Positions 1 through 56,274 of a stretch of DNA of 64,000 nt are shown here, in pieces. The notes beneath the pieces are model-generated. The model worked only from the letters and a program-made list of their open reading frames with translations. It had not been told where the DNA came from and ran no database searches. Source of the stretch: Vicia villosa (Eukaryota; Streptophyta; Magnoliopsida; Fabales; Fabaceae); the NCBI RefSeq assembly GCF_029867415.1, contig NC_081186.1, positions 28,027,915 through 28,091,914 on the forward strand. The letters are read 5' to 3'. A program made the translations under genes and the position numbers. Every line of letters begins with the position of its first letter. Within the stretch, counting starts at the first letter, position 1.

Positions 1-92
1 AAAATAAATAGTTAGACCTACATAACAAAACGCGTGAGTTGCCTCCCACGAAGCACTGCGTTTAACGTCGCGTGGCTCGACGGTCCGCCCTT

Positions 93-20450: not shown

Positions 20451-21284
20451 GGGTGTATGAACCTTCTTCATGAAGAAGAAAAACCCTTTCACAACTTCGC
20501 AGGGGAATCTCGAGTATATGTCCAAGTAATTTGGGTATTAACACGATCAAAACTTGGCTAGACTATGCTCATTACGCAAATATGATGTGAGACAAAATGC
20601 ATGAATATTACGATGATTATGAAATGCAAAGTGAATGTGAATAGAATTGTCGCGGATGTAAAATCCTATGATACGACTCAAATCTTGTTGATCAGAAGAT
20701 GTCTTCTTCTTGTAGTTCGAACTCTGTTGGGGATACCTGGTTATCAGTTGTCCGCTGTCCGAAGTGAGTAATATGAATTGAAGTGAAGATCCATCATCGG
20801 GAGATGTTCACAAAGCGACCTCATGGGGAAATCTTGGTTCCCGGAGTCTCAACCGTTCTCGGAGTAGCTGTTTGCATTCATCCTATTGTTTGTAAACCTT
20901 AGAAAGAAAATTTCACCTCTATTTTTGCAAGTAAATTCATTTTATTTTATGAAAACATTTGTTTCAAGAAAATGACTGTTTAAACTTAAAATGCATTTCA
21001 AGAAACTGAATAAGACTAGATTGCAAAGGAAAGCACAAGGCTCAAATTATTGTATATGGAATGGTAATCAGCCAAATGCTTGATTCCATGGAGTATTTAC
21101 AAAGTTGGAAATTGGTAATTTTTCGGGAAAAGGGCTACGATGAAACGTGACGAGCGTTATCTTTCCCTTCCAATCCGAGTTGCGCTGTATTCGTGCTTCG
21201 TAGAAGATGACCTACTGCTGATGAATACTCCGCTATGGATTTTTGAATGATCAAGTTGGTCCTGAACACAGTTACTTGCCATAT

Positions 21285-21453
21285 ATCCCTAACTTTTGCG
21301 TAAACTACCCCTTTCGGGTTTTAAGTTTACCGGGATTGATTATTTATTTTTTATGTCTCTAAGTTTTGCCTGAATCGCCCTTTCGGGTTTTCGATTCACC
21401 GAGACGCTCTTTTTTGCCTAAGTCGCTCTTTGCGAGTTTTCAACTTAGCGAGC
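21285..21453 (-). other. Triple stem-loop region after integrase of B
   Basis: On the minus strand there are three modules in a row. Module 1: CTAAGTTG (21448-21441) pairs with CGACTTAG (21425-21418), closed by GCTC/GAGC. Module 2: TGAATCG (21398-21392) pairs with CGATTCA (21377-21371), closed by GTCTC/GAGAC. Module 3: GTAAACT (21330-21324) pairs with AGTTTAC (21306-21300), closed by ATCCC/GGGAT. Loops carry AAAA and, in modules 2 and 3, CCC-GAAA-GGG; the 3' side of each inner stem is followed by GCAAAA. D has the same architecture with changed stem sequences. Confidence 0.75.
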
Positions 21454-21468
21454 TGTTCTTTTAATTAT

Positions 21469-24928: not shown

Positions 24929-25255
24929 CTGCATATGTGTGATAAGTTTTATTTAGACAACGAGGGAAGACTCGGTGTATGCAGTTAATGAAATTTTTGA
25001 TGTTTTTTAAGGGTGTTTTTTAGGATTACCAATTTCCGAAAAAAAGAAAAGGAAAAACTAACGACGGAACAAAATGACATTTTTATTTATTGACAGTCAT
25101 TTCTTGAAACAAAGACCCTATAAAACAAAACTCTATTGCTTTGGGCGAAGCAAAGAGGGACATTTTCCTAAGAAATAGTAAAATGCAAAGCCCTATGAAA
25201 CATCTCTTCACCCTGGGCTATGGTGAGAGGATAAAATAACGGTGAAAGTTCCTAC
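24929..25255 (-). other. B: predicted intron between gag-pro and pol
   Basis: On the minus strand a donor AA/GTAGGA (G at 25255) and an acceptor ATGCAG (ending 24929) enclose 327 nt. Removing it joins the gag-pro frame, which otherwise ends at 25252-25254, to pol in the same frame. The split codon (two bases before, one after) matches the phase of the D intron. An intron at this place is established for Ogre elements; these exact sites are inferred. Confidence 0.7.
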
Positions 25256-25340: not shown

Positions 25341-25853
25341 TGTTATACCCCAAAATTTGCCCGCATCTTTTTTCAAGAAAACTCCAATCTGAAAATTAAG
25401 AGTCTCATATGATCATGGATTTTTATTTCAACAAATATCCTGACATATGAAATACTTAGTTTTTAGAATTTTTCTTATACAGTAATTTGGCTTGCAGTTG
25501 AATTTATTCTTACGCAAACGCCAAATACTGTTTATTACTTCACACATGCTATTTATTTATTTACAGATAAATAGTGCTGACACAATTGGTACAGAGTTAA
25601 ATCTTTTTGCAGGCGCAGAATCAGGAAACTCAGACTGTACTGGTAACAAGTAGATTATTATTATCTTTTGTTTCCCACTAATTTTTGTACTATATTCCAT
25701 TATTTTAAAAAATCTTTTCAAATATCTTTTTCAAAAATCAAATCTCTCTTTTTCCCAACACTATCTCCACTTTCTTTCAAATCTTACTTCCACTCAAATT
25801 TTCCTTTTGTACGGAATCACATCATTCCCCAACGTCTCTATCCTTCTTTCCAT

Positions 25854-25865
25854 TCTATAAATACC
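25854..25865 (+). promoter_or_regulatory. TATA box of D 5' LTR
   Basis: TCTATAAATACC lies about 510 bases into the LTR and about 90 bases before a short ORF in good start context. The same site is at 56788-56799 in the 3' LTR. A transcript start near 25890 is expected, but this is inferred from the usual TATA spacing. Confidence 0.65.
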
Positions 25866-25956
25866 TCCCATTTTCTTCCATAAAATCTCACATCAAATTC
25901 TAACTCATCTTTCAAATTCCTACCTCATATCTATTTTCTCTTCTTCCCTTACAAGA

Positions 25957-26124
25957 ATGGCAAAGTGGATAGAGACACTGTCTCTTACAGTCATCACCAT
26001 TGCTACGGTGATCATGACTTTCTTCTGCCTGCATAGTCCTGAAGAGTGTGGACCTGCAATGGTTGCACTCCCAATCATCTACATGTTATTGTTCATAGCA
26101 TGGGTCATTAACCGTCATTCCTGA
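25957..26124 (+). CDS. Small two-pass membrane protein ORF in Ogre LTR (5' copy)
   Basis: A 55-codon ORF begins ATGGC with A at -3 (ACAAGAATGG), a good plant start context. It is the first good start after the TATA box. The product begins MAKWIETLSLTVITIATVIM. Two hydrophobic stretches (about residues 7-26 and 35-51) flank a short acidic loop (SPEECGP), and the protein ends WVINRHS. This predicts a two-pass membrane hairpin. I do not recognise a family and no function is known to me. The 3' LTR copy differs by one synonymous base. Because it lies in the likely R region it would be present at both ends of genomic RNA. It could still be an accidental ORF; comparison with other Ogre families would decide. 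Confidence 0.5.
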   Translation: MAKWIETLSLTVITIATVIMTFFCLHSPEECGPAMVALPIIYMLLFIAWVINRHS

Positions 26125-28476
26125 AGTCTGCCGTGATTCTTATTTCTTAAATGTACCGTTTATTCGTCGTACTGTTCAATATAGTATGTAATATTTGTAC
26201 TGTCAGTATTAAATATTGTACTACTTGTCATAATATTGCTTAATTACTCAGATAATATTTTATGTGTTTTCTGCCAGTCAAATATTCATTTTTCTGTGCA
26301 TTAAATGATTTTCAGGGTTATTATCGGTAATTTTGCCCGCGTACAGTAAAAATTAGTTATTTATTATGTCTGTGTTTTTTTAACAAGTCATGTAAATAAA
26401 CTTTCATTTTTCACATAAAACAAAAACAAAAACAACAAAAAAGAAATTTAACTTTGACTGTTGATTTTTCACTCTAACTGCTACGTCAATATCTGAAAAG
26501 TCAGTTGACAGCCAAACTGCTGGCAGTATAATTCTCAGTGTTTTGTACCATCAATCAAATCAATCTTTCACAATTCAAAATTCCAAGATTTTTGTTCTAG
26601 AAGTCTTCTGAATATCACGCGATTAGCAGAGACTCAACACTGCACAAAAATCAGGTACGCTTAACTGTCTCCTACATAAACAGTCCCTGACTAGGGTTTT
26701 CTTGTTTTTACAGGAGAAACAAGTTTTGAGAGCTCAAATGGATTTCATACACATCCATATATCTCAAAGTACCATCATACAAATTTTCAAACTTCAATTC
26801 ACTCAGACGCACCGTCAGCAGCTCAAACAGTCAACAGACGACCCGTTTGACCAAAAAGTCAACAGACAGTCAAAAATGAAATTTTTTGTCAAAGTCCATA
26901 TTTTGTCAAAGGATTCATCATTTGATCATTGGATGATCATAATTCATCAAGGAAAGATCAAAAATCAACAAAACCCTAAGATTCAAAATTAGGGTTTTTG
27001 CCTGAAAAGTCAACTCAACTTTGACTGATCATAACTCTCTCATCCTTCATCCAAAAAATTCAAACCAAAGCTCATTTTGAAGGAAATTCAATTATCTTTC
27101 AAATGCCATTGATCCCATGGTCATTGGATTCACCATTTGAAAAATATGATCAAAGACATTACAGGTCATTTTCAAAGTCAACAAAAAGACACTTTTTTCA
27201 AAAGGACACACAAGGAGCATCAAAAATCATTTTGACATGAGACCAAAGGCATTGGTTAGAGGACTCTTTGAGGTTTCCAAAAAGTGCAAGATCTCCTTCA
27301 TATGACAAAAATTGAGGGAATTACACCTTGTTGAAGTTGGCTAAATTTTGGGAAAATGCATGAAATCAACATTGCTCAAAAATGTATTTTTTCCAAATGG
27401 GGCCAAGTTTTCATGGTTCAAACATTATTTCCATAATATTATGGGCCTCCCACGACCAAGACTAAGCCCATACCTTTTTTTTATCCATTTTTTGCTTGAT
27501 TTTATCTTATTTTAAGATTAAATTAAAAGTAAAAATGGAAGGATAATGGATAGCTTGATTTCCAAGCATGACTCACCCAAGGAATCTTCATCTTTCTGCA
27601 GAGAATTGAAGAGCAAGGCAGATGCATTGAAGACAAGAAGACTTGGTTAATAATTCAAAGCTTTTTTAATATAAAAAATGCAAGAATTCCACAAAGGCAA
27701 CTAGATGCTTCTTAGCTTCAATTCTAAGCACTTCAATGCTTATAAATAGGCTAGCATGCTTCAGTAACATAGGGGACACGAATCAGAAACAAAGCCTTGC
27801 TCATAATACACTTGTAACCACTTGAAAAATTTCAAAGAAAATTCAAATTCGAGTTTTTAATTTCAGTCAATTTCAATACAAACTAAGCATTCAAACATCA
27901 TCTCTGAGCTTCACTGAAGCTATTCCAATCAATTGCAAGTCTTAAACCTCACTGAATCGAGCTATACAGGTCATAGTTTGTTCAAAATAAAACTAACTTA
28001 TATCTCATAATCCATTCATATTTAGCAAGATGTAGACATATATTTGTGTTTGGTTTGAGGTCCTAATCGTTTCTGGAAAATTAATTGAAGTTTGGAGGCT
28101 TGTACGAAGGATCACCATTTTAGGGTTCGAACCTTTAAATTTGGGGTTTTACGACCCATGCAAAATTATGAACTCTAAATAGTATCATTGAACTCGCATG
28201 AACAAGACGAATTAAATGGTGGCATCGCGCCAAATTTATGTTGTTGTTTGCTTGTATTCGTTATTTCCAACAGGTGTAAAAGGTCAGAGTTTCTACACCA
28301 CCTGCAAATGAAAGGTGTAAAAACTCTATCCTGAAGAAGAAGATGATGCGTGGCGTCCTCTGATTGGATGGAGGGCGCGCGCGTGTTTTTTAAATTAATT
28401 TTGGAATCAGTGTTTTGCAGGTACGTCACGTGCCATGGTCCCTCACCATCTGGGCCTTCTGATCCACTTGCCAGCT

Positions 28477-28481: not shown

Positions 28482-30573
28482 TGTAACACCCCATTTCTAC
28501 CCGGAAATTATATAAAAAAATCAGAGTTTTCAAAATTTCTCAATAAACAAATGAGGCGTCACATAATTAAACAAAACAAATCACCTCGTCGCATAAAGAG
28601 GAGACATAGCACCTTTGAAATAGAATAACTTATTTTATTAAAACATAGCGGAAATCACTTAAGAATGTATTCAATAAAATATCTTCAGTTAACTTAACAT
28701 TTTGTCCAACCAAAATGAAACAATTAAATAGCAACATCAATAACAATATAAATCGTTCCCCCCAGAGTGCTACGTATCAGAGCGACAGCCGACTCGAGTA
28801 ACGGCAACTAAATCTTCATACTTGAATACCTGCACGTTGCCAATATAAAGGCAACGGCGAAATAAGAGAAAAGGGTGAGATATCAAATCATATAAGTGGG
28901 CATATGATAAATTGCATGCTAGGATTCAGACATATAAAATCATCACATCACAAGTATCAATAGCTACTATACACATCATACTTCTACAGTTCATTAATCT
29001 CACATACTTTTCATCACACAACAAGTCATAATCATGTAAATAGTATCATCTAATAAATTTCACATATTCAAGTAAGCACAAAGTTCAATAGTATAATACT
29101 CAAAAGATTCAATACTATTATCCCAAATATATACACAATCCATCATTATCACATATTCACACGTTTAACCAATTATATATCAAAACATCACCAATTTCAA
29201 TTATCACATCTCATGTACACATGACAATCACATAAATGCATATATTCAAACATCACTTAACCTCAATGTGACTCAATGCAAGACATGTGACTCTATGCAT
29301 GTGGTACCCAATGTGGACCCAAAGTTCCACCGCTTCCGATTCATATAGAATCTAGCCACGCTTCAGATCCGGACAAGATCAAAGCCACCAAATGTAAACA
29401 TATAGTTTACCGCTTTCCGAATTCACTCTAGAATTCAAGCCCCGCTTTTGTTTCAAAGCAAACCACCTTTGTTTCAAAGCAAACCACCTTTGTTTCGAGG
29501 CACACCATGACATGAATGCATGTACAATGTTGACAAACATATGCAATTAAGATCATCTCTACCATCTTAATATTTAGCATATCACAATAATTCAACTCGA
29601 TGAATTATTCACCAATTGTACACAACATTCACAACACATACATATCATTCACATATAAAAGGCCAATTAATCAATTACGATTCACAAAATCCAATTAACA
29701 CTAGTAACCATACTATCTCATGTTAATTCTCATTTTGCCAATTATATATGAACATACACATTTAAAATCAAGCAATTAATCATTAAAATTAATGCTATCC
29801 AACTACCCACAGAGAATCAATATCAAAACAACATCATTGACATAATAATATATATTTCTCAACATACATATTCAAGTCAAAACACAATTACGGATAAATT
29901 CTCAAAATATCGTAATTTACCGACAAACCAAATAGTTGATCTAATTCCAAATTGTATTCTAATCAATTAAACACATTGAAATTAATTCAACTATTAATTT
30001 AATCAACCGATTAATAATCACACTATATTAATTTAATTCACTTCTATTTCTACTCCATTTCCAATTTTCTAGCATTCTATTGCTCAAGACCATTTTTATT
30101 AAAAAGAATATCGCGCTAGCTTTCTAACGCCTCGAACGGAGACTCAAACGGAGTTACGGTTCAAAAGATATGAATTGTTAAAGTTTCAACAAAAAAACAA
30201 ACACCGACATCATACACTAACAACTCTAAACATGTCAAAATTACGCTAAACAAATAAAAGTATGACTCTTAATAATCCAAAACAACTCTGACAACTTATT
30301 GTCAACTCTAACAACTCTATTGACAACTCTATTGATAATTCTATTAAATTATTATAATTTATTTATAAAGAATATTTGAATCAAACACAATTTCGGTCGA
30401 TTAATAAAATATCACAATTTCAACAAAATAACACCACCACGTTAATCTACTAATTAAACTTAGCTACCACGCGAATTTTCATCAAATTCCAGATAACTAA
30501 TTATACCATTTAATTCAGCTATTTTGATCAAACGAGACTGTTCAGTATTTCATTAATCCTATAATTCCTACTG

Positions 30574-30665
<92 letters not shown>

Positions 30666-32020
30666 CATTTCATTTATATTATATTCAGTATATTGTTCTT
30701 ACTATTTTCAAATTGTTTCATTTTAAAAAAAACATGTTCCATTCTCATAATGCTATACCATTAATCAACATGGAAAACAGACATGAAACAGTAAGAAACC
30801 AATTTATAGCCTTGCATCAAACGAACATAAAAGACATGGGTGCCGCTCAAAAGGCATCCTGTTCCAATTCTATTGTTTCAAAAATATATGTTTCCATTAT
30901 ATTCTTTCTATACATATATTATCATATGATATTATCACATGTAACTAATATATTATCATATTATATTATATATGTAACTAATAACTAATGTAGAAATTGA
31001 AAACACTAACATAGAAACAGTAATAGGAGAATTAACTAATGACGTCAGTCAAAGAAAATAAAAGGGCCCCACATCATACAAATGCCGCTGCTGGCCATCA
31101 ATTGCTGGCTGCCATGACACTAAGTGGACGCGCATCTCCCTACACCCAGGGTATGCTACACAGACATGGTCATTTTAATTCCATTCTTTTAGTTTTGGTT
31201 TCCATACGATAATTACAGCACAAAAATCAAACGATTAATTTAGGAACAGCAGCATAGATTCAATCAATTTTTCCAGCAACAATTAACACAAGCAAGAGCA
31301 ATAACTTCAATCCCTAATCCCTAACATACAAGGTTTCATAAGCCCCATTATAGGAAGAGAACCCCACCCTTACCTTATCAATGGAAGCAACTCAATGGGT
31401 CTCTAATTACATCTTTACTTGACACCATGGATGAAAAATCTTCAAGCTTCTTCTTCTTCTCCATAGTCTTGCCTCTTTCTCCTCTATTCTTGTTTCTTCA
31501 TTATGACAACTCCCCCTTCCCAAAATCTCTAAAACCCTAATAAAAAAATCAATTGGGCTTAGTGTTTAAATCCTCTCTTTATTTAATATCCTCCAAAATC
31601 AATTTAGGCCCAATAAGAGATATAACTCAAATAATTAATTATATCACTTATAATAATAATTCCTTCAATATAATAATTCCGACTTATAAATAATATTATT
31701 CTTAATAATATTCTTCGACCATCCGACTAGAAATTCAACTTTTACTTAATAAATTCAAAAACGCTTCTTAAAATAACACCGACAATCCAAATTCGACCAA
31801 TATATCATATTTCCGGTCTAATCTTAATTACTCAGAAAATTCCCAAAAATTCAAATATTATTCCAATAATATTTCTAATAATGAAAATATCAAAACTCAT
31901 GATTAAATATCAATCCGCTATCCCGAATTAATACCGACTAAATCGTCTCAAAATACGAAAACTTCACTAAACACTCCGAACGTCTAGATTAAGCAAATAA
32001 TCAAATTTCCGGGCGTTACA
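28482..32020 (-). repeat. E LTR 1 (3539 bp)
   Basis: Plus-strand ends are TGTAACACCCC and GGGCGTTACA. It has private differences from LTR 2 and 3, including an extra copy of a 21-base TTTGTTTCAAAGC-type unit near 29450. It contains a TA tract (30580-30655), a palindromic TGACGTCA at 31040-31047 and a minus-strand TATA-like site (GGCTATAAATT) near 30801-30811. No ORF with recognisable features is present. Confidence 0.95.
30580..30655. repeat. TA microsatellite, E LTR 1
   Basis: About 38 TA units. The equivalent tracts in LTR 2 and LTR 3 are about 51 and 142 bases long. Confidence 0.95.
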
Positions 32021-33869
32021 ACTCTCCCCCACTTAGAATATTTTCGTCCTCGAAAATCTACTTGACAACACCATCGCAACCAAATCTCGTATCAAATTCT
32101 CAAATATCCAAATCGCTTTTGGTAACACTTCAATCACTACTTCTTCGGCACTACAACGATTCCGCAAGAACACAAACACATTACTATTCTTATCATATTC
32201 ACAATAATCTACGACCCAATGCAGCATCATGGCTCATCGCACTTATTCCAACAGTCTATCAATCCAAATATCAAGATAAATCCTCTTCACAGTCGTATAA
32301 CAACATTGCAACGCAATGGTTCCGCTGCGCAACTCTGATAATTCTTCTTTAAGTCATTGCCTTGTTAAAACTCCGTCAACTGTATGGTTCACAAATTTTC
32401 AATCCAACGCAGACTTTCCTTAATACTCATCCCCACATAGTTGGTTCACTTGTTACCTCCAAATCTTTCACCTCGCGACATTCAATTGCACAAAACTCAC
32501 TACTCTGAATTATTCATTTCGTCCAATTCTCACTTAATCACTCCTCTCATCAAGTTACACAAACTGGTGAGCGGCTAACTTCACGATAAAAATATAAAAA
32601 TCTTTCCACACTATTAGGACAACAAGACAAATCTATAACATCCAACACGATTTTCGTTTACCATTAACAATAGATTGAGGGTGATCAGTTCCCCAATTTG
32701 TCAACTAGTATCCGACAACCATAGTGGAGTATAAATCGTTGTTACATCATAAGAGCGTTTTTTTTCCCACTTAAATCCAATAACACGACATAATCCAATA
32801 ATTCACTTTGGGTTTTCACAATTCCTATAACTTCTTACTCAATCGATCTTGTCGATGAGACACCGATGTCCAAGCATAATACCAAATCTGACTCACAATT
32901 ACTTAGCAACACACAATCGTCAAACATCTTTAATACCAACATCTCGTCTTCTCATTTTAATCATCAACAACAAGTTCTGCTTAACTTCACTTCAGACATT
33001 TGCGATAACAACCATTCTTATTCAACAGGCTTACACATTTCCATAAAGGTAGAATACAACTTCACCTCTTTGTAGGTTCAAACGGTACGTCCAATTGATA
33101 CTCGAAACTCAAGATACGAATCTCTGACATTATCCAAATTGCAAACATCGACGTCAAGCATCGACAATTTTTATGTTATCTCCCAAACTCCTCAAATAAC
33201 TTCGACAACAACTGCACCCCATCCCAACATCATCACGCCAACTCAATCTATTACGGCTACGACAATCATTCTTATAATACATTTCATCTCGTTATCTTTC
33301 TGACGCTTCAAACGGAGTTCAAATCAGATATCCGAAACTCAAGCTACGCGCATTCTCGAGTTCCAACTAGGGTTCGCGATTCACAACACTTCACACATCG
33401 ACTACGTCCGTTAATCACTTTTGCGAGTCTATCATAAAGTCTACCGCAACTTTATCACTTTAACACTTGTCAAACACTGACATTAGACGCAAAGGTTAAA
33501 CACACCGACAAGTTCTCAGTCCTCAACCGTGCTGAACATCACCACTCTCTAACTTCTGTCTCCCAAAATTATCCTTAACTTCACATCGTCTTCGACTCTT
33601 GGTAACATCCAAAACTCTCAACACCACTTGCATCGTCGCTTGTCGACAGCATACCTGACCATCTATTACAATAGAAACATCATCGAGAAGTAAAACTTCT
33701 CCCCCACTTGGAAACAAACCAATTCCTGCAACGAAACAAACAAGTTCGGACAGTGTTTCACACACGTGTCATGTACTAAAGACTAAAACACTGACAACAT
33801 TCAACTGTCGCACAACTCAACAGACTCGACAACTTGGCCGGACGGACCGACCTGCTCTGATACCACTAT
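32021..33869 (-). mobile_element. E internal region 1 (1849 bp), non-coding
   Basis: On the minus strand it begins with the primer site and ends CTAAGTGGGGGAGAGT, a polypurine tract, at 32036-32021. ORFs up to about 96 codons occur on both strands but have no domain and lack a coding look. Only the last dozen codons recall a chromovirus pol end. The second copy differs by one T in a homopolymer (near 32760 versus 38105) as far as I can see. Confidence 0.9.
33854..33865 (-). promoter_or_regulatory. E primer binding site (Met-initiator tRNA), copy 1
   Basis: The minus strand reads TGGTATCAGAGC, the standard match to the 3' end of plant initiator Met tRNA. It lies four bases inside the LTR 2 edge. 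Confidence 0.92.
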
Positions 33870-35942
33870 TGTAACACCCCATTTCTACCCGGAAATTATA
33901 TAAAAAAATCAGAGTTTTCAAAATTTCTCAATAAACAAATGAGGCGTCACATAATTAAACAAAACAAATCACCTCGTCGCATAAAGAGGAGACATAGCAC
34001 CTTTGAAATAGAATAACTTATTTTATTAAAACATAGCGGAAATCACTTAAGAATGTATTCAATAAAATATCTTCAGTTAACTTAACATTTTGTCCAACCA
34101 AAATGAAACAATTAAATAGCAACATCAATAATAATATAAATCGTTCCCCCCAGAGTGCTACGTATCAGAGCGATAACCGACTCGAGTAACGGCAACTAAA
34201 TCTTCATACTTGAATACCTGCACGTTGCCAATATAAAGGCAACGGCGAAACAAGAGAAAAAGGTGAGATATCAAATCATATAAGTGGGCATATGATAAAT
34301 TGCATGTTAGGATTCAGACATATAAAATCATCACATCACAAGTATCAATAGCTACTATACACATCATACTTCTACAGTTCATTAATCTCACATATACTTT
34401 TCATCACACAACAAGTCATAATCATGTAAATAGTATCATCTAATAAATTTCACATATTCAAGTAAGCACAAAGTTCAATAGTATAATACTCAAAAGATTC
34501 AATACTATTATCCCAAATATATACACAATCCATCATTATCACATATTCACACGTTTAACCAATTATATATCAAAACATCACCAATTTCAATTATCACATC
34601 TCATGTACACATGACAATCACATAAATGCATATATTCAAACATCACTTAACCTCAATGTGACTCAATGCAAGACATGTGACTCTATGCATGTGGTACCCA
34701 ATGTGGACCCAAAGTTCCACCGCTTCCGATTCATATAGAATCTAGCCACGCTTCAGATCCGGACAAGATCAAAGCCACCAAATGTAAACATATAGTTTAC
34801 CGCTTTCCGAATTCACTCTAGAATTCAAGCCCCGCTTTTGTTTCAAAGCAAACCACCTTTGTTTCAAGGCACACCATGACATGAATGCATGTACAATGTT
34901 GACAAACATATGCAATTAAGATCATCTCTGCCATCTTAATATTTAGCATATCACAATAATTCAACTCGATGAATTATTCACCAATTGTACACAACATTCA
35001 CAACACATACATATCATTCACATATAAAAGGCCAATTAATCAATTACGATTCACAAAATCCAATTAACACTAGTAACCATACTATCTCATGTTAATTCTC
35101 ATTTTGCCAATTATATATGAACATACACATTTAAAATCAAGCAATTAATCATTAAAATTAATGCTATCCAACTACCCACAGAGAATCAATATCAAAACAA
35201 CATCATTGACATAATAATATATATTTCTCAACATACATATTTAAGTCAAAACACAATTACGGATAAATTCTCAAAATATCGTAATTTACCGACAAACCAA
35301 ATAGTTGATCTAATTCCAAATTGTATTCTAATCAATTAAACACATTGAAATTAATTCAACTATTAATTTAATCAACCGATTAATAATCACACTATATTAA
35401 TTTAATTCACTTCTATTTCTACTCCATTTCCAATTTTCTAGCATTCTATTGCTCAAGACCATTTTTATTAAAAAGAATATCGCGCTAGCTTTCTAACGCC
35501 TCGAACGGAGACTCAAACGGAGTTACGGTTCAAAAGATATGAATTGTTAAAGTTTCAACAAAAAAACAAACACCGACATCATACACTAACAACTCTAAAC
35601 ATGTCAAAATTACGCTAAACAAATAAAAGTATGACTCTTAATAATCCAAAACAACTCTGACAACTTATTGTCAACTCTAACAACTCTATTGACAACTCTA
35701 TTGATAATTCTATTAAATTATTATAATTTATTTATAAAGAATATTTGAATCAAACACAATTTCGGTCGATTAATAAAATATCACAATTTCAACAAAATAA
35801 CACCACCACGTTAATCTACTAATTAAACTTAGCTACCACGCGAATTTTCATCAAATTCCAGATAACTAATTATACCATTTAATTCAGCTATTTTGATCAA
35901 ATGAGACTGTTCAGTATTTCATTAATCCTATAATTCCTACTG

Positions 35943-36010
<68 letters not shown>

Positions 36011-37365
36011 CATTTCATTTATATTATATTCAATATATTGTTCTTACTATTTTCAAATTGTTTCATTTTAAAAAAAACATGTTCCATTCTCATAATGCTA
36101 TACCATTAATCAACATGGAAAACAGACATGAAACAGTAAGAAACCAATTTATAGCCTTGCATCAAACGAACATAAAAGACATGGGTGCCGCTCAAAAGGC
36201 ATCCTGTTCCAATTCTATTGTTTCAAAAATATATGTTTCCATTATATTCTTTCTATACATATATTATCATATGATATTATCACATGTAACTAATATATTA
36301 TCATATTATATTATATATGTAACTAATAACTAATGTAGAAATTGAAAACACTAACATAGAAACAGTAATAGGAGAATTAACTCATGACGTCAGTCAAAGA
36401 AAATAAAAGGGCCCCACATCATACAAATGCCGCTGCTGGCCATCAATCGCTGGCTGCCATGACACTAAGTGGACGCGCATCTCCCTACACCCAGGGTATG
36501 CTACACAGACATGGTCATTTTAATTCCATTCTTTTAGTTTTGGTTTCCACACGATAATTACAGCACAAAAATCAAACGATTAATTTAGGAACAGCAGCAT
36601 AGATTCAATCAATTTTTCCAGCAACAATTAACACAAGCAAGAGCAATAACTTCAATCCCTAATCCCTAACATACAAGGTTTCATAAGCCCCATTATAGGA
36701 AGAGAACCCCACCTTTACCTTTTCAATGGAAGCAACTCAATGGGTCTCTAATTGCATCTTTACTTGACACCATGGATGAAAAATCTTCAAGCTTCTTCTT
36801 CTTCTCCATAGTCTTGCATCTTTCTCCTCTATTCTTGTTTCTTCATTATGACAACTCCCCCTTCCCAAAATCTCTAAAACCCTAATAAAAAAATCAATTG
36901 GGCTTAGTGTTTAAATCCTCTCTTTATTTAATATCCTCCAAAATCAATTTAGGCCCAATAAGAGATATAACTCAAATAATTAATTATATCACTTATAATA
37001 ATAATTCCTTCAATATAATAATTCCGACTTATAAATAATATTATTCTTAATAATATTCTTCGACCATCCGACTAGAAATTCAACTTTTACTTAATAAATT
37101 CAAAAACGCTTCTTAAAATAACACCGACAATCCAAATTCGACCAATATATCATATTTCCGGTCTAATCTTAATTACTCAGAAAATTCCCAAAAATTCAAA
37201 TATTATTCCAATAATATTTCTAATAATGAAAATATCAAAACTCATGATTAAATATCAATCCGCTATCCCGAATTAATACCGACTAAATCGTCTCAAAATA
37301 CGAAAACTTCACTAAACACTCCGAACGTCTAGATTAAGCAAATAATCAAATTTCCGGGCGTTACA
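33870..37365 (-). repeat. E LTR 2 (middle, 3496 bp)
   Basis: It shares most variants with LTR 3 (for example GATAACCGACTCG and CTCATGACGTCAG). It also has private ones (CATATACTTTTC, AAATGAGACTG, CCTTTTCAATGG). Its TA tract is the shortest (35950-36000). It serves both internal regions, one on each side. Confidence 0.95.
35950..36000. repeat. TA microsatellite, E LTR 2
   Basis: About 25 TA units, the shortest of the three aligned tracts. Confidence 0.95.
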
Positions 37366-39215
37366 ACTCTCCCCCACTTAGAATATTTTCGTCCTCGAAA
37401 ATCTACTTGACAACACCATCGCAACCAAATCTCGTATCAAATTCTCAAATATCCAAATCGCTTTTGGTAACACTTCAATCACTACTTCTTCGGCACTACA
37501 ACGATTCCGCAAGAACACAAACACATTACTATTCTTATCATATTCACAATAATCTACGACCCAATGCAGCATCATGGCTCATCGCACTTATTCCAACAGT
37601 CTATCAATCCAAATATCAAGATAAATCCTCTTCACAGTCGTATAACAACATTGCAACGCAATGGTTCCGCTGCGCAACTCTGATAATTCTTCTTTAAGTC
37701 ATTGCCTTGTTAAAACTCCGTCAACTGTATGGTTCACAAATTTTCAATCCAACGCAGACTTTCCTTAATACTCATCCCCACATAGTTGGTTCACTTGTTA
37801 CCTCCAAATCTTTCACCTCGCGACATTCAATTGCACAAAACTCACTACTCTGAATTATTCATTTCGTCCAATTCTCACTTAATCACTCCTCTCATCAAGT
37901 TACACAAACTGGTGAGCGGCTAACTTCACGATAAAAATATAAAAATCTTTCCACACTATTAGGACAACAAGACAAATCTATAACATCCAACACGATTTTC
38001 GTTTACCATTAACAATAGATTGAGGGTGATCAGTTCCCCAATTTGTCAACTAGTATCCGACAACCATAGTGGAGTATAAATCGTTGTTACATCATAAGAG
38101 CGTTTTTTTTTCCCACTTAAATCCAATAACACGACATAATCCAATAATTCACTTTGGGTTTTCACAATTCCTATAACTTCTTACTCAATCGATCTTGTCG
38201 ATGAGACACCGATGTCCAAGCATAATACCAAATCTGACTCACAATTACTTAGCAACACACAATCGTCAAACATCTTTAATACCAACATCTCGTCTTCTCA
38301 TTTTAATCATCAACAACAAGTTCTGCTTAACTTCACTTCAGACATTTGCGATAACAACCATTCTTATTCAACAGGCTTACACATTTCCATAAAGGTAGAA
38401 TACAACTTCACCTCTTTGTAGGTTCAAACGGTACGTCCAATTGATACTCGAAACTCAAGATACGAATCTCTGACATTATCCAAATTGCAAACATCGACGT
38501 CAAGCATCGACAATTTTTATGTTATCTCCCAAACTCCTCAAATAACTTCGACAACAACTGCACCCCATCCCAACATCATCACGCCAACTCAATCTATTAC
38601 GGCTACGACAATCATTCTTATAATACATTTCATCTCGTTATCTTTCTGACGCTTCAAACGGAGTTCAAATCAGATATCCGAAACTCAAGCTACGCGCATT
38701 CTCGAGTTCCAACTAGGGTTCGCGATTCACAACACTTCACACATCGACTACGTCCGTTAATCACTTTTGCGAGTCTATCATAAAGTCTACCGCAACTTTA
38801 TCACTTTAACACTTGTCAAACACTGACATTAGACGCAAAGGTTAAACACACCGACAAGTTCTCAGTCCTCAACCGTGCTGAACATCACCACTCTCTAACT
38901 TCTGTCTCCCAAAATTATCCTTAACTTCACATCGTCTTCGACTCTTGGTAACATCCAAAACTCTCAACACCACTTGCATCGTCGCTTGTCGACAGCATAC
39001 CTGACCATCTATTACAATAGAAACATCATCGAGAAGTAAAACTTCTCCCCCACTTGGAAACAAACCAATTCCTGCAACGAAACAAACAAGTTCGGACAGT
39101 GTTTCACACACGTGTCATGTACTAAAGACTAAAACACTGACAACATTCAACTGTCGCACAACTCAACAGACTCGACAACTTGGCCGGACGGACCGACCTG
39201 CTCTGATACCACTAT
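37366..39215 (-). mobile_element. E internal region 2 (1850 bp), non-coding
   Basis: This is a second copy of the E internal region, with the same primer site and polypurine tract positions relative to its LTRs. Every small ORF of copy 1 recurs unchanged, which reflects recent duplication rather than coding constraint. Confidence 0.92.
39200..39211 (-). promoter_or_regulatory. E primer binding site, copy 2
   Basis: TGGTATCAGAGC on the minus strand, four bases inside the LTR 3 edge. A second, equally intact primer site supports duplication of a whole LTR-internal unit. Confidence 0.92.
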
Positions 39216-42807
<3,592 letters not shown>

Positions 42808-42812
42808 CATCC
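42808..42812 (+). repeat. Target-site duplication of E, right copy
   Basis: CATCC directly after GGGCGTTACA, matching 28477-28481. Confidence 0.97.
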
Positions 42813-44353
42813 AACGCGCCAGACAAAGCAGTCCTTACCATGGACTCTCAATCCAACCACACCTGATCAGTATCCTTTTATTTTCTATTTTTTATTTTAA
42901 TTTCTTTGTTAAATTAATTTAAAATAGTTTTAAAAAATCAAAAAATACACAAAAAATATTTTTAGACTTCTAAAATAATATATTATTTTCTGAAATAAAA
43001 ATATTTTATTTTTTTCAAAATTTCAAAATTTTGTATAATTAATTAGTATATATTTATATATTTGCTTCTTAATTATTCTAACCAATCAAAAAAATCATAA
43101 AAAAAATTGTTCTTTGTGTTAAATATTGTTTATATATTATAAACTAATTTTGTACATATTTTGAATAATTTTCTTTTTAGGTTTTAATTATTTGTATAAT
43201 TATTTGCATAATTATGTTTTAATTAGCTTAAATCAATTTCAAATCAATTTCCAAAAATTCCAAAAAAATTAGTTTTGTTTTAAAATTAATTAAAAAATAT
43301 TTTGTACATATTTTAAACTTAATTTCTAGGTTTAAATATATTTTCATCTTTTTTTCTTCATTTTAATTTAATTAATCATGCATTAATTATAATTAAAATA
43401 AATCATAAAAAATCCAAAAACATGCCTTTTATTTTTCTTGCAATTTAAATTCCTAGATAAATGTATAGGATGTCAAATTCATGTAAATAGGCTAGTTTAC
43501 ATTTCCTGCACAATCGATGTAATAGCGCAGATTTACTTTCCGCACTTTACATTTCCGCATTTTAATTTCCAGCAAATATAAACTGCGTGTATGTCAAAGA
43601 TAAAATTGAACCGTTAGATCACTAACTTCAAAGATAAAATATTTGAATACAATCACAATCACACTTGCACCTCTTAAGGTAAATCCCTTCTCATTCTTTT
43701 CAAAATCAAAGTCAAAATTCTACTGTTTCGAGTACAAAATCGAACCTTGCGTTTATATCCGGTGAAAGGATAGATTTTTAAAGGAAATAGGATAAAGACC
43801 TTACAACTCAGGGTAGACCTCCTAGTTTGCTTGCTCAAATCGAAACAAACAAAATTCTCATACACTGTTGTTTTTCAAAACAAAACTTTCAAAAAAGACA
43901 ATACTTTGTATACATCCAAACACGGATTATTACAAAGTTAACGTTCTATTCAAAACATCTTTCGGAAGATAAACAAGCATTTTGTATACATCCACACACG
44001 GATCATTACAAAATTCAATTTACAAAAGTATTTGAAACCACATATGAGCATTCTAAAGCAATTGAAAAGTGATCGAAAAACAAGTGAGCTAAGCAAACTT
44101 AAGAGCCCATGGATAACCATGGATACAAAGGGTGCTAACACCTTCCCTTTGTATAACCTACCCCCTTACCCAGAATTTCTTAAAGGTCTTTTTTCTGTTT
44201 CTTTTATAAACCTTTCCTTAATTGGATAAAATAAAAGGTCGGTGGCGACTCTGTGAATTTTCAAAATGCGAAAGCATTAAGCGATAAAAGAGTCAGTTCA
44301 CGTATCTCTACAGAACAGAGGTATGGCCCGGGATTAAAAAACGGAGGTCCACA
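42808..44353 (+). repeat. D 5' LTR, right part
   Basis: The last 1.55 kb of the D 5' LTR resumes with the second CATCC. It holds the Ogre-typical block GGTGCTAACACCTTCCCTTT near 44132, a marker also found in minus-strand form in A and, degenerate, in B. It ends GGTCCACA just before the primer site. Small ORFs are shared with the 3' LTR because the LTRs are young. Confidence 0.95.
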
Positions 44354-50458: not shown

Positions 50459-50718
50459 GTAAATGCCATTTCCTGTTTTCTTTGTGTATATTGTGCAAAG
50501 ATAAAAATGGTTCCTAAACAATCGAACCATGAGCTTGAAAAGCCGTGTGCCTTAGCACACCGGTCCTTCTATAAGGGCTTATCATATCATGATCATGTGC
50601 ATTCAATAAAATCATGGGACGCTTGCATATTTAAATTTTGTGATCCTTTTTCTTTCTTTCTTCGCTTTCTAATAGCTATGTTTTTTTCTTCACACACACT
50701 CACATAATTAACATGCAG
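50459..50718 (+). other. D intron between gag-pro and pol (260 nt)
   Basis: Donor CAGGA/GTAAATG and acceptor AACATGCAG/ACTC enclose a T-rich intron with a candidate branch point TTCTAAT near 50668. Splicing removes the stop at 50460-50462 and joins gag-pro to pol with a split codon (GA + A, Glu), giving a continuous frame into 50825 and beyond. Ogre elements are known for an intron here. These exact sites are read from this sequence. Confidence 0.85.
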
Positions 50719-53700
50719 ACTCACATACACTCTGGATCCAGTCAACAACGATTCTGCTATTGCCCGTCATGACTTTGAAAATCCGATCTACCAAACTGAG
50801 GACGAAAGTGAGGAAGATTGTGAAGTGCCAAGAGAACTTGCAAGGCTGCTAGAACAAGAAGACAAGGCCATACAGCCTCACGATGAGCCAATTGAGGTCA
50901 TCAACTTGGGCAGCAACGAAGAAAAGAAAGAAGCCAAAATAGGGGCTGATTTAGAACACAGCATCAAGCAAAGACTGATTCAAATGCTGCGAGACTACGT
51001 CGAGATATTCGCCTGGTCTTATGAAGATATGCCAGGCCTTGACACGGACATCGTAGTTCATCGCCTGCCAATCAAAGAAGGTAGCACTCCAGTCAAACAG
51101 AAACTACGAAGGAGTAGGCCTGATATGTCAAAAAAGATCAAAGACGAGGTTGAAAAACAGTTCGATGCCGGATTCCTAAAAGTTGTAAGTTATCCTCCTT
51201 GGATAGCTAACATCGTCCCTGTACCTAAAAAAGACGGGAAAGTCAGAATGTGCGTGGACTACAGAGATCTGAACCGGGCAAGCCCCAAAGATGATTTCCC
51301 TCTACCACACATCGATGTACTGGTTGACAATACCGCACAATGCAAGGTATTCTCCTTTATGGACGGATTCTCAGGGTACAATCAAATCAAGATGGCACCC
51401 GAAGACATGGAAAAAACAACCTTCACAACACCCTGGGAACCTTTTGTTACAAAGTAATGCCCTTTGGTCTGAAAAACGCAGGAGCAACCTATCAACGTGC
51501 AATGGTAGCGCTATTTCATGATATGATTCATCAAGAAATAGAGGTGTATGTCGATGACATGATTGCAAAATCCAACACCGAGGAAGAACATTTGGGTCAT
51601 TTACACAAGTTGTTTGACAGACTCAAGAAATACAAGTTGCGACTGAACCCAAATAAATGTACCTTTGGAGTAAGATCCGGCAAACTCTTAGGTTTCATTG
51701 TCAGCAGCAAAGGTATTGAGGTTGATCCCGCCAAGGTTAAAGCCATTCAAGAAATGCCTATACCTCGTACCGAGAAACAAGTCAGAGGATTCTTGGGACG
51801 TCTAAATTACATCGCCCGATTTATTGCCCACATGACTACTACTTGTGTGCCGATCTTCAAACTATTGAAGAAAGATCAAGTGGAAAGGTGGAATGACAAA
51901 TGCCAGTTAGCCTTTGACAAAATCAAAGAATATCTCCAAAAACCTCCAATCTTATTGCCACCTGTGGAAGGCAGACCTCTGATAATGTACCTAATTGTGT
52001 TAGAAGACTCAATGGGGTGTGTACTAGGACAACATGACGAATCCGGCCGAAAGGAACACGCAATCTACTATCTTAGCAAAAAGTTTACCGATTGTGAAAC
52101 AAGATACTCACTACTCGAAAAAACTTGTTGTGCCTTAGCTTGGGCAGCTCGCCGGCTAAGACAGTACATGCTAAATCACACCACTTTCCTAATCTCCAAG
52201 ATGGATCCCATCAAATACGTGTTCCAAAAACCTGCTCTCTCTGGAAGAATAGCGAGATGGAAAATGATCTTAACAGAATATGACATTCAATACACTTCAC
52301 AAAAAGCAATCAAAGGAAGTGTGGTAGCTGATCATCTGGCTCATCAAGCAGTGGATGATTATCAAGCATTGAACTTTGACTTCCCAGACGAAGACATTAT
52401 GCTAGTCAATGACTACAAACAACCAGGACCAGAAGAAGGACCCGAGCCAGGATCCCGGTGGACTATGGTTTTTGACGGAGCTTCTAATGCACTTGGCAAT
52501 GGCATCGGAGCTGTGATCATTTCCCCCGCAGGAAGTTACACACCGTTCACTGCCAGATTATGCTTCAATTGCACTAACAATATAGCCGAATACGAAGCAT
52601 GTATTCTGGGTCTTAAAGCTGCAATCGATCTAAGAATCAAATTCCTGGATGTCTATGGAGACTCGGCCTTGGTAATCTACCAAGTCAAAGGGGAATGGGA
52701 CACGAAGCACCCGAATCTAATTCCTTACAAAGAATATGTGCTGAGTTTGATTCTTTACTTCGAAGAAATCATTTTCGAACACATCCCACGCGAGGAAAAT
52801 CAACTAGCTGATGCTTTAGCTACCATGTCATCCATGTTCAAAGTCAGGTGGGACAACGAGGCGCCTATGATCACCATTTACAGGCAAGATGAACCATCCT
52901 ATTGCAATGAGATCAATACCGAAGGAACCGAGGAAAAACCATGGTTCCATGAAGTAAAAAGATATCTCGAAGCTCAGGAGTACCCCGAAGGGGCATCCAT
53001 TAACGACAGAAAGTTTCTAAGGAGATTTGCTGCCAAATTCTTTCTAAGCAATGGAACCCTATACAAACGCAACCATGACTCGACTTTACTTCGCTGTGTA
53101 AACAAGAAGGAAGCAGAACAGATCATGGAAGAAATACACAATGGTACCTTCGGTACTCATTCCAGTGGACATACAATGGCTAAAAAGATCCTGAGAGCAG
53201 GTTATTACTGGTCTACCATGGAAACAGACTGCCATCATCACTCCCGAACATGTCACAAATGCCAGATATACGCTGACAAAGTACATGTACCTCCAGTTCC
53301 ATTAAGCGTCCTGACGGCTCCTTGGCCTTTTGCAATGTGGGGTATTGATATGATTGGAGAAATCAAACCTACTGCCTCCAACGGACATCGCTTTATCCTG
53401 GTCGCTATTGACTACTTCACAAAGTGGGTAGAAGCAGCTTCATTTGCTTCTGTTACCAAGAATGTGGTGGCCCAGTTCATCAAATACAATCTCATTTGTC
53501 GGTACGGCATCCCTGAACGGATTATCACGGACAATGGCACAAATCTAAACAACAGAATGATTACTGAACTTTGCACACAGTTCAAGATCAAGCATCATAA
53601 TTCTTCTCCATATCGACCAAAGATGAACGGCGCGGTGGAAGCTGCCAACAAGAACATCAAGAAAATCATACAAAAAATGACAGTAACCTACAAAGACTGG

Positions 53701-54189
53701 CATGAGATGTTGCCTTTTGCTCTTCATGGTTATCGCACATATGCGCGTACTTCAACAGGGGCAACTCCATTCTCCTTAGTCTATGGTATGGAGGCAGTTC
53801 TTCCAATTAAAATTCAGATTCCTTCCCTAAGGATTATGAAAGAAGCCAATCTAGACGAAGACGATTGGATTCAAACACGGTTGGACCAGATAAACTTGAT
53901 TGATGAGAAAAGGCTCGCAGCTATTTGTCATGGTCAGCTATACCAAAAGCGTATGATCAAAGCCTTCGACAAAAAAGTCAAAAGTCAAGCATACCAAAAT
54001 GGTGGCTTGGTTGTCAAACGCATCATCTTACCACAAGGTGATCCCAGAGGCAAATGGACTCCCACCTACGAGGGACCATTCATAATCAAGAAAATATTCT
54101 CCGGCGGCGCCATGTTGCTTACCACCATGGATGGCGAGGATTTCCCACACCCTGTGAATGCGGACATAGTCAAAAAATACTTCTCTTAA
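50719..54189 (+). pseudogene. D pol exon (RT, RNase H x2, integrase), one frameshift
   Basis: The exon opens LTYTLDPVNNDSAIARHD, then an acidic linker. RT follows (FAWSYEDMPGL, CVDYRDLNRASP; YVDD at 51547-51558), then a retroviral RNase H (QHDESGRKEHAIYYLS). A second RNase H starts near 52468 (VFDGASNALGNG, with later Glu and Asp residues). The integrase has an HHCC zinc region (about 53157-53265), a D-D-E core (WGIDMIG near 53340, TDNGT near 53530, AVEAANKN near 53635) and an end at KKYFS. A one-base deletion in a G run near 51435-51437, before the YVDD motif, shifts the frame. This is the only lesion I see. No chromodomain is present, as usual for Tat/Ogre. Confidence 0.92.
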
Positions 54190-54198
54190 AAAAAAACA

Positions 54199-54361
54199 GC
54201 TCGCTAAGTTGAAAACCTGAAAGGGCAACTTAGGCAAAAAAAATGAGCGTCTCGGTGGATTGAAAACCCGAAAGGGCGGTCCAGGCAAAAATTAGAGACT
54301 AAACAAATACTATCCCGGTAGGCTGAAAACCTGAAAAGGCAGCCTAGGCAAAAGTTAGGGA
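54199..54361 (+). other. Triple stem-loop region after integrase of D
   Basis: Three modules begin ten bases after the integrase stop. Module 1: CTAAGTTG (54204-54211) pairs with CAACTTAG (54226-54233), closed by GCTC/GAGC. Module 2: TGGATTG (54256-54262) pairs with CGGTCCA (54277-54283, two G-U pairs), closed by GTCTC/GAGAC. Module 3: TAGGCTG (54319-54325) pairs with CAGCCTA (54340-54346), closed by TCCC/GGGA. Each loop has AAAA then CCY-GAAA-RGG, which can form a GAAA-tetraloop mini-stem, and each inner stem is followed by GGCAAAA. Confidence 0.78.
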
Positions 54362-55497
54362 ATGAAGCATACAACTGTGTTCCGTTCAGCTACCTACTCA
54401 CCATCAAGATTCAACACCTCAAAGACACCGATCAGTCCAATCACTTTCTTCCAACAAGTGAGGGATGAGATGCTCGAAGACAGATTGGCAATAGCAGAGT
54501 TGAAACTTGACTGGATTGTTTTCACATAGCTATTTATCTTCATAAATATTTTCCAAAACTTTCTGACAATTTCCTACTTCTAGGATTGTTGTCTCCCTGT
54601 GCTAACCAGCCTATCATGGCTCTTTTTCAAAAATCAATGCAGCTTAGGCTCAAAAATCACTATTTTCACTTTTTCTGTTTTAAATACGTAAGCGTCCCAA
54701 TGATAATTTTGAATGAGCATGTGCATTTGAATATGATTGATGTTTACCAGGAAAAACAGGAATAGCATTCAGGAAATGTCCTAATTATCTGGACATCATT
54801 CCATCAGAAGAAAATCCCCAAGAGGAGCGCCTTTCTCAGCAAATTCCTCAAAAAGATTTTCTCTTCAAAAGAAGTCTTATCCCCCAGCAGGGTTGTTCCA
54901 GATTACTATCTTCAGAAGGTGTGATCCCCGCACCCGGACTTGGTCAGATAGTGCATCGGAGGATTATGCATCTTCCTCATTCTCATTTGAAAGGGCATCA
55001 GAACTTCCAGATACCTTTCATTCTCAAGAGATATTCAAAGATCCTTCAACAGAATACCAGGATTCTCAAAGAATTTCCCCAGCCAAGGGTACTCAAACAA
55101 GACAAAAGATCATCAACGATCACAATATAGTCATATCCAGATGACTGGCGGAAATTTATTTTCCCAAATAGAAGCTTGACATCTCACATTCATACATCAC
55201 ATATTCACATTCATACATATTCACATTCATACATCATGCATCATGCGCATATTCATACGCATATTCATACACAACATCACATGCATATTTCTCCGGGAAT
55301 ATCTCACATTACATGCATCATAAACATTGCATATCACTAACTTGATTTTTCAGGTAGATGGATATCTTCGACAAAGATGTTCTCAATCACATGCAGTGTT
55401 CACCTGAATTCCATGAACGGTTCTCTCAGATATAATCAAGTCGAAGATTCATTCTGATCACTTACCAACTCAAAAACAGACATTGCAGATCAAAGTC

Positions 55498-55910
55498 GAT
55501 ACCTCAGACGGTTCCAGAACGATCTAGCATCAAAGATCTAAAGCGATACCTCAGACGGTTCCAGAACGATCTAGCATCACAGATCTAAAGCGATACCTCA
55601 GACGGTTCCAGAACGATTTAACATTGCAGATCTAAGTTGATACCTCAGACGGTTCCAGAACGATCTACTATCAAAGATCTAAAGCGATACCTCAGACGGT
55701 TCCAGAACGATCTAGCATTACAGATCTAAAGCGATACCTCAGACGGTTCCAAAATGATCTAGCATCACAGATCTAAAGCGATACCTCAGACGGTTCCAGA
55801 ACGATCTACTATCATAGATCTAAAGCGATACCTCAGACGGTTCCAGAACGATTTAACATTGCAGATCTAAAGCGATACCTCAGACGGTTCCACAATGATC
55901 AACTTCCAAA
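55498..55910. repeat. 47-bp tandem repeat in 3' UTR of D
   Basis: About nine copies, the first starts being 55498, 55545 and 55592, with core GATACCTCAGACGGTTCC. Degenerate copies continue to about 56000. Tandem arrays in this part of Ogre are known to be hypervariable and to seed satellite repeats. Confidence 0.93.
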
Positions 55911-56204
55911 TCTAAATCGGAAAAAACTTTGGACAAGTTCCGTAACGATTATCTTCCAAGACTTAAAGCGGTAACCTTGGACGGTTCCGAAACAGTCAAC
56001 ACAAAGACTTTCAAATCCTTCATCAAGATATAATCAATGGATTCATTCTGATGAACAAACCATTAACCCATTCACCAGGTGGCATCTGAAAGCCCATCTC
56101 AGGTAATGTGTCAATCTGCCAACAACATTTCACAGACGACATTCAAATGCAACTTCCAACATCTCTTCTGATCAAGGTAAGTGCAAATTTTCAGGGCATC
56201 TAAA

Positions 56205-56266
56205 TATTCAATCATCTTCTACCTTCAGATTTCAGACAATCTCTTCAGGTTTAAGAAGATTGAATA
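56205..56266 (+). other. Polypurine-tract-proximal hairpin of D
   Basis: TATTCAA (56205-56211) pairs with TTGAATA (56260-56266). Further in, TCTTC pairs with GAAGA, ACCT with AGGT, and AGAT with ATCT. The lower arm runs directly into the purine tract AGGGGCAAC before the LTR. A and C share the fold with a compensated outer pair. Confidence 0.65.
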
Positions 56267-56274
56267 GGGGCAAC

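Follow-up and report, generated by a model that had tools for sequence, protein, structure and literature searches.

A tandem array of covarying stem-loop modules behind the pol stop codon of Ogre retrotransposons in Vicia villosa, a candidate cis-acting RNA element

Behind the integrase of an Ogre-type LTR retrotransposon of Vicia villosa, designated D, stem-loop modules stand in tandem, raising the questions of whether selection acts on the shape of this RNA and which task such an array might serve in an element with a retained intron. The locus was analysed within a window, i.e. the whole stretch of 64,000 nucleotides under study, and modules were further searched in its 2.03-Gb source genome. 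D has the order ORF1 (DUF7745), gag-protease ORF, RT, RNase H, additional RNase H and integrase, with the Pfam domains RVT_1, RT_RNaseH, RVT_3, Integrase_H2C2 and rve following each other at 51340-54186. Two hallmarks of Ogre (Tat lineage, Ty3/gypsy) are present in D: an additional RNase H lies between RT and integrase, and an intron, predicted from the sequence, parts gag-pro from the pol ORF. The ORF at 44933-46375 matches DUF7745 (E 4.8e-114), and an extra 5' ORF with a plant mobile-like domain is an Ogre feature according to the available text of PMC6317226. Parts of the two LTRs of D share 99.2% identity in an alignment of 2,901 bases, and 2,085 nt separate the pol stop from the 3' LTR. 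As to the rest of this part of the window, direct repeats of ~5.3 kb, present in at most three copies and nearly 100% identical, occupy 28482-41690; the stretches that flank them (25341-27774 and 42808-43107) are both found again on the side of D that bears the 3' LTR, and hence the repeats apparently lie inside its 5' LTR. A bacterial promoter and terminator scan, which is not meaningful in this DNA, found none.

The array of D spans 163 nt (54199-54361, plus strand) from 9 nt past the pol stop. According to the original prediction, three modules stand right after the integrase, each consisting of an outer stem (P1), an inner stem of 7-8 bp (P2), an AAAA bulge, a CCY-GAAA-RGG mini-hairpin (P3) and a GGCAAAA strand, and this drawing was indeed reproduced for all three modules by the minimum free energy (MFE) fold of the sense strand over 54190-54365 (-47.6 kcal/mol, z -3.01, equalled by 1 of 200 shuffles). 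No such fold arises on the antisense strand, where 52 of 200 shuffles do as well (z -0.64). The homologous region of B, another Ogre-type copy in the window, folds nearly as D does (21278-21460, minus strand; z -3.86, 1 of 200 shuffles as good) and contains the predicted inner-stem changes, but the loop of its first module reads GCAAA and not GAAA, and its third module has CGCAAAA in place of GGCAAAA. When a longer 250-nt stretch of D was folded, the MFE structure retained modules 1 and 3 and refolded module 2, and thus single-sequence folding is by itself no proof. Within D, module 1 combines its AAAA bulge and GGCAAAA strand with a P3 that can be read as CCT-GAAA-GGG or in an AGG register, P1 of module 2 abuts module 1 directly while its P2 includes two G-U pairs, and module 3 begins 13 nt past module 2. 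Positions are collected in Table 1, together with matches to a covariance model, R1, built from 13 modules of several families.

Table 1. Features of elements D and B in the window
Feature	Position	Strand	Remarks
B module 3	21283..21338	-	from fold; inner stem GTAAACT/AGTTTAC; model match 59.1 bits
B module 2	21353..21407	-	from fold; inner stem TGAATCG/CGATTCA; model match 76.7 bits
B module 1 (core without outer stem)	21411..21447	-	from fold; loop GCAAA; model match 31.0 bits
Covarying intron hairpin, B copy	25126-25162	-	aligned stretch
Ogre intron of D, ~260 nt	50459..50718	+	donor GTAA overlaps gag-pro stop TAA; acceptor ATGCAG
Covarying hairpin inside D intron	50536..50572	+	~80 nt past gag-pro stop; aligned stretch
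D pol stop codon TAA (RT-RNase H-additional RNase H-integrase ORF)	54187..54189	+	9 nt upstream of module 1
D module 1	54199..54248	+	P1 GCTC/GAGC, P2 CTAAGTTG/CAACTTAG; model match 54205-54240, 41.6 bits
D module 2	54249..54299	+	P1 GTCTC/GAGAC, P2 TGGATTG/CGGTCCA, P3 CCC-GAAA-GGG; model match 54247-54301, 83.0 bits (part of training set)
D module 3	54313..54361	+	P1 TCCC/GGGA, P2 TAGGCTG/CAGCCTA, P3 CCT-GAAA-AGG; model match 54310-54364, 75.8 bits (part of training set)
Remaining D 3' untranslated region up to 3' LTR (TGTTATACC from 56275)	54362..56274	+	contains 47-bp tandem array
47-bp tandem array	~55434-55957		hypervariable Ogre 3' UTR kind, apart from modules

Across 118 aligned modules the AAAA bulge, the GNRA-like loop and the GGCAAAA strand are the near-constant parts, whereas the stems are variable. 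The loop is GAAA in 88 modules, GCAAA in 19 and of other sequence in 11, and GGCAA occupies the 3' strand in 104 of the 118. The GCAAA loop would fit a GNRNA pentaloop, a type able to adopt a GNRA-like fold. The predicted number of three modules holds for D, but arrays contain two to four depending on the Ogre family. Families E and J have reduced modules without the P3 hairpin, and in families F and G the AAAA of the first hairpin opens a long loop, with the 3' arm still running into GGCAAAA. Where the array begins with two full modules, as in nine of the families read, their outer stems lie, as judged by eye, 0-2 nt apart, and such abutting stems would allow coaxial stacking.

Sequence identity, when measured across the 210 nt that follow pol, exceeds that of shuffles by a modest margin only (0.647 against 0.539), since families differ in module number, and with simple conservation this weak the case rests on structure. 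The original prediction took the double changes between the stems of D and B as a sign of selection on RNA structure, a view that would fail if many Ogre copies held no more paired substitutions than expected by chance. Paired substitutions do exceed chance: among 65 distinct aligned modules, whose rows are related by descent so that the counts are not independent events, 97.2% of 883 pair cells pair as compared to 86.6% in shuffles, cells with a double change number 145 against 49.6 and the covariation score is 0.445 against 0.266, with none of 500 shuffles reaching any of these three values. Sliding one arm by a single column lowers pairing to 54-55%. Not every measure stands out in this set, since further pair types number 18 against 22.1 in shuffles (14 against 15.2 in another pair count), and the 10 pairs that show a double change compare with 8.0, a count of 10 being reached by 42 of 500 shuffles. 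Because the alignment was fitted to the covariance model, a swap of whole inner arms was added, with arms taken from fixed positions beside the AAAA; the 24 distinct arm combinations, which represent 108 modules, form 159 of 168 pairs, while the best of 20,000 permutations gave 151. The double changes recur between families within one slot, as exemplified by the P2 variants TAGGCTG/CAGCCTA, TAGATTG/CAATCTA, TAGACTG/CGGTCTA and TGGACTG/CGGTCCA in slot 3, by TGGATTG/CGGTCCA and TGAATCG/CGATTCA in slot 2, and by the outer stem CTC/GAG or CCC/GGG in slot 1. Furthermore, the non-Watson-Crick cells of the 65 rows comprise 88 G-U and 3 A-C, and it is this excess of G-U that points to selection on the sense strand, as antisense selection would give the reverse. 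These sequence comparisons strongly support selection on structure; the structure is kept in the sense strand, most likely as RNA, and it is probably the shape of this RNA on which selection acts.

In the window a core 16-mer, allowing at most 3 mismatches, gave 10 matches against 1.69 expected. In the genome a 29-base module pattern matched exactly 20,614 times (10,266 + 10,348) and its reversed form not once, and a pattern for the integrase C-terminus had 15,145 matches as compared to 7 for a control pattern. The two were compared by position and direction over the first 100 listed places per pattern, all on contig C1, with the same strand confirmed on fetched loci. Each of the 100 listed strict modules follows an integrase end at a distance of at most 450 nt, and this includes the last one, C1:20968751, which follows the site C1:20968533. 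Conversely, 58 of the 85 listed integrase sites up to 20.93 Mb have a strict module at most 450 nt behind them; the 27 sites without one comprise 15 Retand-like sites, 11 of one Ogre subfamily and a single locus, L181, that has modules by the covariance model. Modules are therefore present at 59 of the 70 sampled Ogre-type pol ends (84%), and the refuting condition of absence from most families does not hold at these sites, though one subfamily lacks them. Here the label Retand-like refers to an integrase ending in GKWSP.WEGP and was assigned without a tree. At 15 extra loci, which are out-of-frame or divergent sites hit by an integrase pattern with its spacing one base off, the model found modules in 8 of 8 Ogre-type and 0 of 7 Retand-like copies.

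Searched over the window and 40 loci (232,054 bases), R1 found 118 modules in 40 of the 41 sources, the sole exception being L121, the rest of the Athila-like element A. As 39 of the 40 loci were taken from the strict-pattern list, the presence of at least one module in them follows from the sampling, whereas the restriction of the additional modules to the region behind pol does not. All 115 matches with a readable pol stop start 13-150 nt past it on the pol strand and none lies on the opposite strand, and three further matches in one locus (L120) were left out of the distance count, although the stop and the modules are visible there. Within the window only six matches exist, all behind the pol of D and B, and none near a 5' leader. 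In ten families the array holds a fixed place behind pol. Outside this genome, the 16-base core matched 74 stretches of the viral_contigs set, none with a GGCAAAA tail. With longer patterns, 13 stretches were obtained from genome_contigs and 11 from viral_contigs, and these were taken as chance because their best model score was at most 20.3 bits as compared to at least 30 for listed Ogre modules. The integrase query found no relative in viral_contigs.

The Ogre subfamily without modules accounts for 11 of the 70 sampled pol ends; six of these sites (L162-L167) were fetched and contain no module over ~560 nt behind the stop, the other five being classed by the missing strict match and an integrase 31-mer, and three further 2.5-kb stretches of the subfamily also contain none. 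Hence, in this subfamily the element is either not indispensable or replaced by something unseen. Further behind pol, short stretches that these copies (L162-L167 and L190-L192) have in common with module-bearing families could be seen by eye. The Retand-like loci have hairpins of their own behind pol. In 15 of 16 loci with an H/YWEGP integrase end (L123, L126, L127, L128, L131, L134, L135, L169-L173, L177, L179 and L180, with L178 lacking it) a symmetric AAA/AAA internal loop lies between GYCA..UGGC and UGG..CCA; L169 and L170 are identical, and L171 has lost the stop before its hairpin. In all four S/GWEGP loci (L168, L174, L175 and L176) a different hairpin, UGGCYAA..UUGGCCA, is found. The Retand-like hairpin is not demonstrably homologous to the Ogre modules. 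Element A, which we take to be Athila-like from its reading frames, has further ORFs and a long region behind pol, and no module occurs in the 9.4 kb of this single copy (window 1-4561, minus strand, and L121).

The Ogre intron provides the natural comparison for any function tied to splicing. Its arrangement was found in all eight Ogre-type copies read, which belong to seven or eight families and include two module-less copies (L182 and L183), with a donor GTAA overlapping the gag-pro stop, an acceptor TGCAG and a length of 259-278 nt in the seven measured. In the Retand-like locus L189, on which the judgement for its group rests since L188 has no open frame and is uninformative, no gap parts the gag-pro and pol frames, i.e. 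there is no sign of an intron. The intron itself contains a second covarying structure, a hairpin with a loop of about GCCC in most families. Over D, B and L182-L187, 9 of its 10 predicted pairs are maintained through changes on both sides, 87.5% of cells are paired as compared to 65.4% in shuffles and 35-46% in slid controls, and the covariation score is 0.804 against 0.315 (0 of 500 shuffles). This hairpin is present in both module-less copies. An AATAAA also occurs within the intron of seven of the eight copies (D, B, L182, L183, L184, L186 and L187, with none in L185) and might serve premature polyadenylation behind gag-pro, though the introns are AT-rich and chance may account for it. Using a pattern with fixed ends and a variable gap, 1,832 genomic copies with the intron and 12 without it were counted (12 of 1,844, 0.65%). 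All 12 intron-less copies belong to a D-like Ogre and agree in a span of 59 bases, as expected from exact splicing (sequence inspected for one), and they may derive from one event that spread. As read from these genomic copies, this suggests one or more, but rare, instances in which spliced Ogre RNA served as template for reverse transcription. The modules lie outside the intron and hence on spliced and unspliced RNA alike, so the intron hairpin is a better candidate than the modules for a signal confined to unspliced RNA.

Among the possible functions we tentatively favour, with less than even confidence, that the array is a modular cis-acting RNA element of Ogre whose job would be that of a stop-codon-proximal stability element, by analogy with the RNA stability element (RSE) of Rous sarcoma virus (RSV). 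As far as the available texts go, that element lies immediately downstream of the gag stop with a minimal length of 155 nt, lets the RNA evade nonsense-mediated decay and stabilises reporters with long 3' UTRs (PMC2925335, PMC5580461). Both elements are stop-adjacent in retroelement RNA, similar in length (155 and 163 nt) and followed by a long untranslated stretch, and the Ogre array starts 9 nt past the stop in D, with every model match that has a readable stop beginning 13-150 nt past it. In Ogre, the stems would act as scaffolds that hold the A-rich strands and GNRA-like loops in a repeated register, with the loops and A-strands as contact sites for a protein or for tertiary contact. The ~2.1-kb UTR between the pol stop and the 3' LTR of D would invite nonsense-mediated decay or deadenylation, and a folded segment immediately past the ribosome at termination would shield the pol stop, as the RSV RSE does. 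The element tracks the stop codon and not the intron, given that the module-less subfamily keeps the intron and that the Retand-like loci have pol-end hairpins. A stop-codon insulator hence fits the position at the pol end, with or without an intron and before long 3' UTRs (the Retand pol-to-LTR region measures 2,933-6,566 bp in the available part of PMC11963269), better than intron-tied export or packaging tied to unspliced RNA.

Several points speak against this RSE-like reading, among them the abundance of the module-less Ogre subfamily. The RSE reportedly acts through PTBP1 on pyrimidine tracts, whereas the modules are A-rich and not pyrimidine-rich. Unlike the modules, which stand behind pol in tandem, the RSE lies behind gag and no tandem units are reported for it in the available part of its literature, and a stabilising activity of the modules is suggested by analogy. 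Repeated identical loops are also typical of protein-binding packaging or export signals, and the one copy of element A has a long region behind pol yet no module. A wider arrangement, possible though rather doubtful, would comprise two RNA controls in Ogre, namely the intron hairpin behind gag-pro on unspliced RNA only and the modules behind pol on both RNAs. With other hairpins at the pol site of Tat relatives, these would form a stop-proximal system that shelters and sorts RNAs in elements ranking among the largest plant retrotransposons and whose designs are swapped as a whole between lineages.

The transport or packaging role guessed at in the original prediction gained no support, as the modules do not track the intron and lie on both RNAs. 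In the first of these alternatives, which is unlikely, the modules would recruit an export adaptor for the intron-containing genomic RNA in the manner of the MPMV CTE or the mouse IAP and MusD elements. CTE-like transport elements occupy the region between pol and LTR towards the 3' end of the RNA, and so do the modules, in a spliceable LTR-element RNA whose ~260-nt intron is present in every Ogre family looked at. The known CTE, RTE (IAP) and MTE (MusD) folds differ from the module fold, and the modules resemble none of 4,227 Rfam families in sequence or structure, with no match at gathering scores over the window and none at E up to 10 over 54150-54450. The presence of modules does not track the intron: the subfamily without them (L182, L183) retains it, so that they do not regularly accompany an intron-containing genomic RNA, and L189 has no intron sign yet belongs to a group with a pol-end hairpin. 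Export tied to the intron is for this reason insufficient as an explanation. A review states that direct study of RNA export is lacking for plant LTR retrotransposons (PMC12786077).

It is likewise unlikely that the tandem hairpins with their same loops constitute a packaging or dimerisation signal that binds the Gag nucleocapsid and brings RNA into particles. The repetition of the module two to four times, with its loops constant and its stems free to vary, does suggest several sites for an oligomeric protein, and the modules are strictly sense-strand and tied to pol-bearing copies. However, they are carried by spliced and unspliced RNA, and yet intron-less copies are rare at 12 against 1,832, a ratio of genomic copies whose meaning as a strength of selection against spliced RNA would depend on the cellular fraction of that RNA. 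Something else must thus select the unspliced RNA, and judged from the sequence the modules are not absent from spliced RNA, as a packaging signal selecting the unspliced form would be. Neither is any of the six module matches of the window near a 5' leader. Export or packaging of both RNAs may still be served by the modules.

A translation element, in which the A-rich strands would serve as docking sites for poly(A)-binding protein or initiation factors and link the 5' end with the 3' UTR, as plant virus 3' translation enhancers do, is in agreement with the predicted single-stranded AAAA bulge and GGCAAAA strand and with the 3' UTR position. It appears quite improbable, since the short A-tracts measure 4-8 nt and none of the enhancer families known in Rfam matches. 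The element for nuclear expression (ENE) can be rejected. The hallmark of an ENE is a U-rich internal loop that clasps the poly(A) tail and forms a triple helix with an A-rich tract, and the unpaired strands of the modules are AAAA and GGCAAAA, with no U-rich loop found on reading the 65 distinct modules. The ENE of plant retrotransposons such as Evade raises RNA stability and mobility, according to the available part of PMC12501189, and like the modules it is a 3' UTR structure of a plant LTR retrotransposon, but the modules follow the stop codon directly and are separated from the RNA end by at least ~2 kb.

The weakest alternative, that the modules have no RNA function and reflect neutral tandem duplication or a DNA-level signal, draws on their being paralogous tandem units between pol and 3' LTR, in the same elements whose 3' UTR repeats vary freely in monomer sequence and length (PMC7004042, as far as available), but is very improbable given the paired substitutions beyond shuffles and slides, the excess of G-U over A-C, a fixed place in ten families with two to four copies of one structure whose stems covary and differ by slot, unlike a free-running array of near-identical monomers, and the location of the actual hypervariable array elsewhere in the 3' UTR (Table 1).

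No description of the modules was found in the open-licence literature, although subscription journals may hold one, and hardly any structured RNA controls are known in plant LTR retrotransposons. The finding bears on the question of how retrotransposons of 20 kb that retain an intron and end in a 2-kb 3' UTR preserve their RNA and settle on the form to be copied. For this, a single genome offers a module of ~50 nt in thousands of natural variants, with fixed loops and covarying stems, and together with the natural module-less subfamily and the second element in the intron it makes this question testable.
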